Shown: piece by piece, positions 23,968 through 61,066 of the stretch | How the letters are laid out: each line of letters begins with the position of its first letter | Numbering within the stretch: position 1 is the stretch's first letter | NCBI RefSeq assembly: GCF_937873725.1 | Contig: NZ_CALMYY010000101.1 | Coordinates: forward strand, 1-64,000 | Source: an uncultured Dietzia sp. | GTDB lineage: Bacteria > Actinomycetota > Actinomycetes > Mycobacteriales > Mycobacteriaceae | Length of the DNA stretch: 64,000 nucleotides | Direction of reading: 5' to 3' | Translations under genes and position numbers: made by a program | Notes under the pieces: model-generated | What the model saw: only the letters and a program-made list of their open reading frames with translations | What the model was told of the DNA's origin: nothing | The model's database searches: none

Positions 23968-24111
23968 ACGGGGAGGGTACCGGCCCCGGAGCGGCGGTGA
24001 CGAACGCCGAGGCGCGGGTACGCTCGGGGATTCGTGGAGGTCGTTGCTCGCGCGCCTGTGGGCGCGCGCGTGGAGACCGCTGGTGGAGACTCGGTGGAGA
24101 GGTGGATCGCG

Positions 24112-54692: not shown

Positions 54693-54697
54693 CCGGT

Positions 54698-59475: not shown

Positions 59476-60057
59476 ATGACAGGTATAGCAGACGAGTTGG
59501 AACTCGCCGTCGCAGACGCGGTCAAGGGAGACCGGACCGCAGCGGCGCGGGTGCTCGAACTCGTACGTCCCGGTGTGGTGCGCTATTGCCGCTCCCGCGT
59601 CGGGGGTGCGGAGAGGGTCAACCTGTCTGCTGACGATGTCGCGCAGGAGGTGTTGATCGCGGTGCTCTCGGCGCTGCCGGGATATCGCGATCAGGGACGT
59701 CCCTTCATGGCGTTCGTGTACGGGATCGCAGCCCACAAGGTTGCGGACGCCCACCGGGGAGCCGCACGGAACAAGTCGGATCCCGTGGAGTACCTCCCCG
59801 AGGTGCTCTCGACGGACACGGGGCCGGAGGACCACGTCCTGGACGGCGAGGTGACCAGGGCGATGAGCCGTCTGCTGGGGACCCTGCCGGAGAAGCAGCG
59901 GGAGATCATCCGGCTGCGAGTGGTGGTCGGTCTCTCCGCGGAGGAGACCGCGGAGATCGTGGACAGTACGGCCGGTGCCGTGCGCGTCGCCCAGCACAGG
60001 GCGATGAAGCAGCTCCGGGCACGGCTCGAGAAGGACGGAGAGGAGCGATGGCGATGA
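59476..60057 (+). CDS. sigD: ECF-family RNA polymerase sigma factor SigD
   Basis: A 193-aa ECF sigma factor. The region 2 core includes LSADDVAQEVLIAVLSALPGY and FMAFVYGIAAHKVAD; region 4 has LPEKQREIIRLRVVVGLSAEETAEIV and a final recognition helix GAVRVAQHRAMKQLRAR. Position and partner match M. tuberculosis SigD (Rv3414c), linked to stationary-phase and starvation responses and activated by loss of RsdA. The 223-bp spacer upstream has TATCCT at 59347 but no convincing -35. Its stop overlaps the rsdA ATG. Confidence 0.94.
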   Translation: MTGIADELELAVADAVKGDRTAAARVLELVRPGVVRYCRSRVGGAERVNLSADDVAQEVLIAVLSALPGYRDQGRPFMAFVYGIAAHKVADAHRGAARNKSDPVEYLPEVLSTDTGPEDHVLDGEVTRAMSRLLGTLPEKQREIIRLRVVVGLSAEETAEIVDSTAGAVRVAQHRAMKQLRARLEKDGEERWR

Positions 60058-61066
60058 ACGACGACGAAGTGGATCCCGGCACCCGGGACGACGACGCCTC
60101 GCTCACCGACGAGAGGTGCGAGCCGGGCGAGGTGGAGCGTGACGACGCGCTCCTCGACGCCCTCGCGGCGGGCGACCGGCCCGCGTCCGAGGACCCGCTT
60201 CTCGCCCTGTTGTCGGACTGGCGCGCCGAGGTGGGCGCCGCACCCCTGCCCGGGTTGCCGAGCGCCGAGGAGATCGAGATCGCCCTCGCGCCCAACGTCT
60301 CCCGCCTGTGGCCGCGACGCGGCTGGGCGAAGTCCCACGAACATCACCACGGGCAGCGCCCGGCGCTCTGGCAGGCGGTGACCGGTGCCGCCGCCGTGGC
60401 CGCCGTGATCGTCGGGGGGCTGTCCGTCGCCGCGCACAGCGCGATGCCGGGTGACCCCCTGTGGGGGTCTCCAAGACGATCTTCTCCGATCGCGCCGGCG
60501 AGGTGGAGCTGGTCAGCGACCTGACCGAGCACCTGGCGGCGGCGGACCTGGCCGCCCGCGAAGGTGACCGGGACACGGCCGAGCGACTCCTGGACGAGGT
60601 GACCGACCGGCTGGACGAGGTCGCGGACGCGTCGGAGCGGGTCGAGTTGATGAAGCGTCGCGACGCGATCATGAGGGACCTGAGCCGGGTCACCCCGAGC
60701 GCGGTCCCGTCGCCGGCCCCCGCTCCCGTCCCGGCCCCGGGGCCGGGACCGGGTGTCGCCACGCTCGTCCCGGGGATCCCGGTTCCGCTACCGACGAACC
60801 TCATCCAGCCGCCCCCGCCCGGTATCCCGGTGATCCCGCTGCCCCTCGACGGGTTGCGGATCCCGACCACGCTGCAGATCCCGATCGACACACAGCGGCT
60901 GCAGGACTTCCTGTCACCCACCACCGGGCTGGAGGAGTCGGATGAGGACGAGTCGGTCACGCCGACCCCGTCCCCCACGCGGACCACCGTGACCCAGGTC
61001 CCGACCCCGTCGACGAGTCCGGCCAGCGACCCTCAGACAGCGCAGTCGAGCCAGCCCGCCAACTGA
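60054..61066 (+). pseudogene. rsdA: Anti-sigma-D factor RsdA, interrupted by a single-base frameshift
   Basis: Two reading frames together make one RsdA-like protein. Frame 1 (60054 to about 60467; MNDDEVDPG start, overlapping the sigD stop as ATGA, AGGAG upstream) encodes the cytoplasmic sigma-binding region and the membrane helix (WQAVTGAAAVAAVIVGGLSVAA), then PGDPLWG. Frame 2 (to 61066) continues VSKTIFSDRAGEVEL and the Pro/Thr-rich extracytoplasmic domain. The switch falls in a run of five Gs at 60463-60467; six would restore one frame. This could be a real inactivating mutation, a phase-variable tract, slippage, or a sequencing error. Without it the protein would be about 337 aa, as expected. 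As read, only a truncated, still membrane-inserted protein (about 155 aa) is made. Confidence 0.88.

Follow-up and report, generated by a model that had tools for sequence, protein, structure and literature searches.

In this Dietzia genome, the gene encoding RsdA, the membrane-bound anti-sigma factor that restrains the stress-response sigma factor SigD, is, as judged from its sequence, a truncated allele and not a functional rsdA. We filed it as such because the extracytoplasmic domain does not share the frame of the N-terminal part, as it does in a MAG of the same species. The break coincides with the loss of a single G from a short G run. A recent, strain-private slippage truncation of rsdA, accompanied by Rip1-mediated deregulation of the sigma factor SigD, is the reading we prefer, and we give it an even chance of being correct. 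The window, that is, the whole stretch of DNA analyzed (64,000 nucleotides), represents contig C101 of this 3.1-Mb genome.

The sigD-rsdA locus and the truncated product

The plus strand carries, in this order, a groEL-like gene, sigD and rsdA, followed by a gene in convergent orientation and one resembling guaB, the groEL and guaB labels being our own assumptions, made by eye. The sigD product scores 276.7 bits against the NCBIfam model of the ShbA/SigD subfamily (NF007230; cut-off 209) and is 89–97% identical to most other Dietzia SigD proteins. Immediately downstream, rsdA overlaps sigD. The initial annotation had placed its start at 60054, which we correct to the probable start ATG 60048; this codon is 10 bases short of the sigD end, overlapping the sigD stop, and the same spacing (−10) is shared by all Dietzia. 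At residue 85 of SigD, the same-species MAG carries a substitution (Ala85Val; window position 59729 compared with L008/L057), while alanine occupies this position in all 99 other compared sequences, some genomes being counted twice; the valine may be a real variant or an error of the MAG.

Table 1. Positions in the window of sigD, rsdA and the elements surrounding the frame break
Feature	Coordinates	Strand	Evidence
sigD, ECF sigma factor, 193 aa, intact	59476..60057	+	NCBIfam NF007230 and identity to Dietzia SigD
rsdA upstream frame, truncated anti-sigma factor of 158 aa, last 18 residues out of frame	60048..60524	+	
SigD-binding domain of RsdA (PF16751)	60129..60245	+	Pfam profile match
Predicted transmembrane helix, residues about 111–129, retained	60378..60434	+	mean Kyte-Doolittle 2.06
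Inverted repeat GACCCCC-TGT-GGGGGTC around the G run, 7-bp stem	60453..60469	.	sequence and DNA folding
Displaced frame, remaining extracytoplasmic RsdA (about 200 aa), unjoined to the N-terminal part	60455..61066	+	
Five-G run, site of the frame change; the conspecific MAG has one base more	60463..60467	+	

The switch of frame at the GGGGG, which had been read from the DNA alone, was borne out by our analysis (table 1), as was the missing G, since the conspecific MAG is one base longer exactly at this run. Also in agreement with the initial annotation, the 158-residue product keeps both its sigma-binding region and its membrane helix and loses its extracytoplasmic part. The SigD-binding domain is recognized with an E-value of 3.9e-8 (33.9 bits; cut-off 26.7), and the match to the M. 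tuberculosis Rv3413c chain (3vep) is weak (E = 0.033). Hydropathy, the sole basis for the helix prediction, indicates a single hydrophobic segment; beyond it, a PGDPLWG motif is trailed by 18 unrelated residues, so that about 29 residues would remain outside the membrane versus about 210 in the intact protein. In its adjacency to sigD, its PF16751 domain and its one membrane helix followed by a PGDPLW motif, the protein resembles the RsdA of other Mycobacteriales (M. tuberculosis Rv3413c, C. glutamicum RsdA), and the extracytoplasmic tail is present in the intact conspecific; it differs from them in that this part is out of frame. We found no second RsdA elsewhere in the genome, in which this PF16751 domain is the only one.

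The displaced frame comprises 203 codons (60455–61063), and the MAG sequence is identical to it apart from the one base. GTG 60461, which the initial annotation had singled out as the head of this frame, is indeed its first possible start, and we saw no sign of its use. Reinitiation there would yield a fragment lacking the membrane helix, and would therefore not restore the protein.

A private and recent break, real or local error

The MAG of the same species, Dietzia sp. UBA5065 (L008/L057), which is the nearest relative and the only other genome of this species compared, matches our sequence at 99.96% identity over 4.6 kb, and its rsdA is an uninterrupted gene for a protein of 339 aa; only two differences separate the two sequences in this region, the base in the G run and the sigD substitution. 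All other sigD-rsdA loci covering the site, from about 18 Dietzia species as well as Nocardia, Rhodococcus, Mycobacterium, Williamsia, and Tsukamurella (one locus, L091, being checked by hand), have an open frame across the break; of about 100 loci, no other has the shorter allele. Because the MAG copy and every other covering locus are uninterrupted, the break is, on this sequence comparison, private to the present assembly, derived and recent; the intact conspecific and the open frames of the other loci also make a chance pattern of reading frames very unlikely. The initial annotation took an uninterrupted gene in all close relatives as an argument against the break. The relatives are indeed uninterrupted, which indicates that the allele is private to the strain and not that it does not exist.

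Whether the missing base belongs to the strain or to its assembly was addressed by aligning the genome with the MAG over 268,608 bases, which contain 324 substitutions and 827 G/C runs of at least five bases. Outside a divergent contig end (L246), there are five indels, namely the one-base gap in rsdA, a 2-bp gap, a 3-bp gap and, on the MAG side, two gaps of one base; the rsdA gap is thus the only one-base gap charged to our genome. With one such gap among 827 G/C runs, the assembly is unlikely to be generally prone to homopolymer error, and this 269-kb comparison rules out an assembly riddled with errors. The 2-bp gap in our genome, at L213:12629, lies shortly upstream of an rpsM-like ORF. 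At L241:5239-5255, the MAG lacks one base in each of two neighboring C runs; these directly follow the stop codon of an ORF whose product we judged by eye to be DinB-like.

Of the assembly error raised in the initial annotation, what survives is an error of sequencing or consensus calling confined to a GC-rich hairpin, the strain's own rsdA being intact, and we consider this quite possible, if somewhat improbable. The G run sits within the 7-bp stem of such a hairpin (DNA folding −8.9 kcal/mol, z −2.5), and the uniqueness of the shorter allele is in line with an error. Moreover, the intact sequence of the same species itself comes from a MAG, and errors of this kind probably occur in the genus Dietzia, because in another assembly locus L016 (G004:C24) lacks, within 4.5 kb, two single bases that the nearly identical L015 (G005:C81) has; one of these deletions breaks sigD, the second lies just upstream, and they are probably assembly errors. 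A local error is, however, made less probable by the lack of any other one-base homopolymer gap charged to this genome in the alignment with the MAG (about 265 kb), and by the agreement with the MAG at the other 15 of 16 hairpin-like sites with G/C runs of at least five bases, the rsdA site being the sole one with an indel. On the whole, we lean toward a contraction that is real in the strain. As regards annotation, this pseudogene-like rsdA call needs to be checked against reads before biological claims are built on it.

We also scanned the window for other frameshifts, using the ORFs of two complete genomes of Dietzia, a comparison that is noisy because it includes spurious frames and that is only supportive. 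It returned further splits; of those that we viewed closely, the ones at 24080 and 40900 correspond to gene starts preceded by non-coding sequence, and the one at 54695 marks where tsaE gives way to the following gene.

Predicted effect on SigD

The initial annotation left open whether the truncation would lock or free SigD, and related systems favor the latter (PMC10202637, PMC7728848, PMC11175481). In C. glutamicum, RsdA is cleaved by MarP as site-1 protease and by Rip1 as site-2 protease, and loss of rsdA results in constitutive SigD activity (PMC11175481). In E. coli, RseP excludes full-length RseA by its size and cuts the form already cleaved at site 1 (PMC7728848); RseP also processes a truncated RseA that has not undergone site-1 cleavage, a behavior proposed for truncated MucA as well (PMC10202637). 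Two protease genes free of internal stops are present in our genome, one Rip1-like (M50 and PDZ domains) and one MarP-like (Colicin_V and trypsin domains). We therefore infer, from the RseA and MucA precedents, the roughly 29 residues left outside, the intact proteases and the lack of a second RsdA, that SigD would be freed rather than locked if the truncation is real. The truncated protein, still anchored in the membrane, would resemble an anti-sigma factor on which the site-1 protease has already acted; Rip1 could then cleave it without MarP or an envelope-stress signal, and degradation of the cytosolic piece would leave SigD wholly or partly constitutively active.

The opposite outcome, in which the shortened RsdA persists in the membrane, escapes control by MarP and keeps SigD permanently off, appears improbable to us. 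It would make sense of the retained SigD-binding domain and helix, and the site-1 cleavage that normally triggers release takes place in the lost part (PMC11175481), but RseP cuts truncated RseA in spite of this lack (PMC7728848, PMC10202637), and the Rip1-like protein found here also possesses a PDZ domain.

The truncation is of a known kind, and the mucA22 allele of P. aeruginosa is its tightest precedent. There, a −1 deletion in a G5 run, which most strains carry and in which mutations recur, truncates MucA, another anti-sigma factor controlled by proteolysis, on its extracytoplasmic side (PMC2781719). Both cases involve a one-base contraction in a short G run within the gene of a membrane anti-sigma factor, sparing the sigma-binding part and cutting the extracytoplasmic side; they differ in the protein and the sigma factor concerned, and the Dietzia truncation is found in one genome, so that the likeness holds at the level of anatomy only. 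The E. coli RseA/DegS/RseP system shares the logic of regulated intramembrane proteolysis, with a truncated anti-sigma factor acting as the site-1-cleaved product, and is likened to RsdA as a functional analogue. Truncation at the G run could also be an adaptive change that arises repeatedly in Dietzia and renders SigD constitutively active, the Mycobacteriales equivalent of mucA22 mucoid conversion, but this is improbable: among about 100 loci, independent truncations do not recur, one genome alone being affected. Our literature search retrieved no report linking Dietzia, an anti-sigma factor and a frameshift. The truncation points to no new mechanism, its likely effect being well understood from related systems. 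A real truncation would make the strain a natural truncated-RsdA variant; comparing it with an intact isolate of the species would bear on the bypass of MarP and the release of SigD, as for truncated RseA and as proposed for MucA.

Origin of the contraction

The contraction is most likely an ordinary strain-level mutation, and slippage in the short G run its most likely cause. In mycobacteria, homopolymer runs promote frameshifts (PMC10159617), and in related actinobacteria indels are not corrected by NucS (PMC8228993). NucS is present in our genome; no MutS was detected in it, in a search whose control was found in 11 of 14 genomes. We also considered a quasipalindrome correction at the inverted repeat and rejected this mechanism as unneeded, because the intact copy folds equally well, with the same 7-bp stem and a loop one base longer.

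Programmed or spontaneous frameshifting, by which the two frames would be joined and some full-length protein made, is very unlikely. A −1 slip from GGG onto GGG is conceivable at the run, and a hairpin surrounds it; on the other hand, the neighboring tRNA-Trp would re-pair poorly after such a slip, the intact copy forms a hairpin at least as stable, and no relative needs frameshifting at this site, all others having the gene in one frame.

The suggestion of the initial annotation that the homopolymer might be phase-variable, a contingency run turning rsdA on and off, is not supported and is the least probable reading of all: two genomes of the same species do differ by one base in the run, but it is only five to six bases long and, since most Dietzia species interrupt it with C, T, or A, no long tract is maintained, six Gs being found at this position in only three other genomes.
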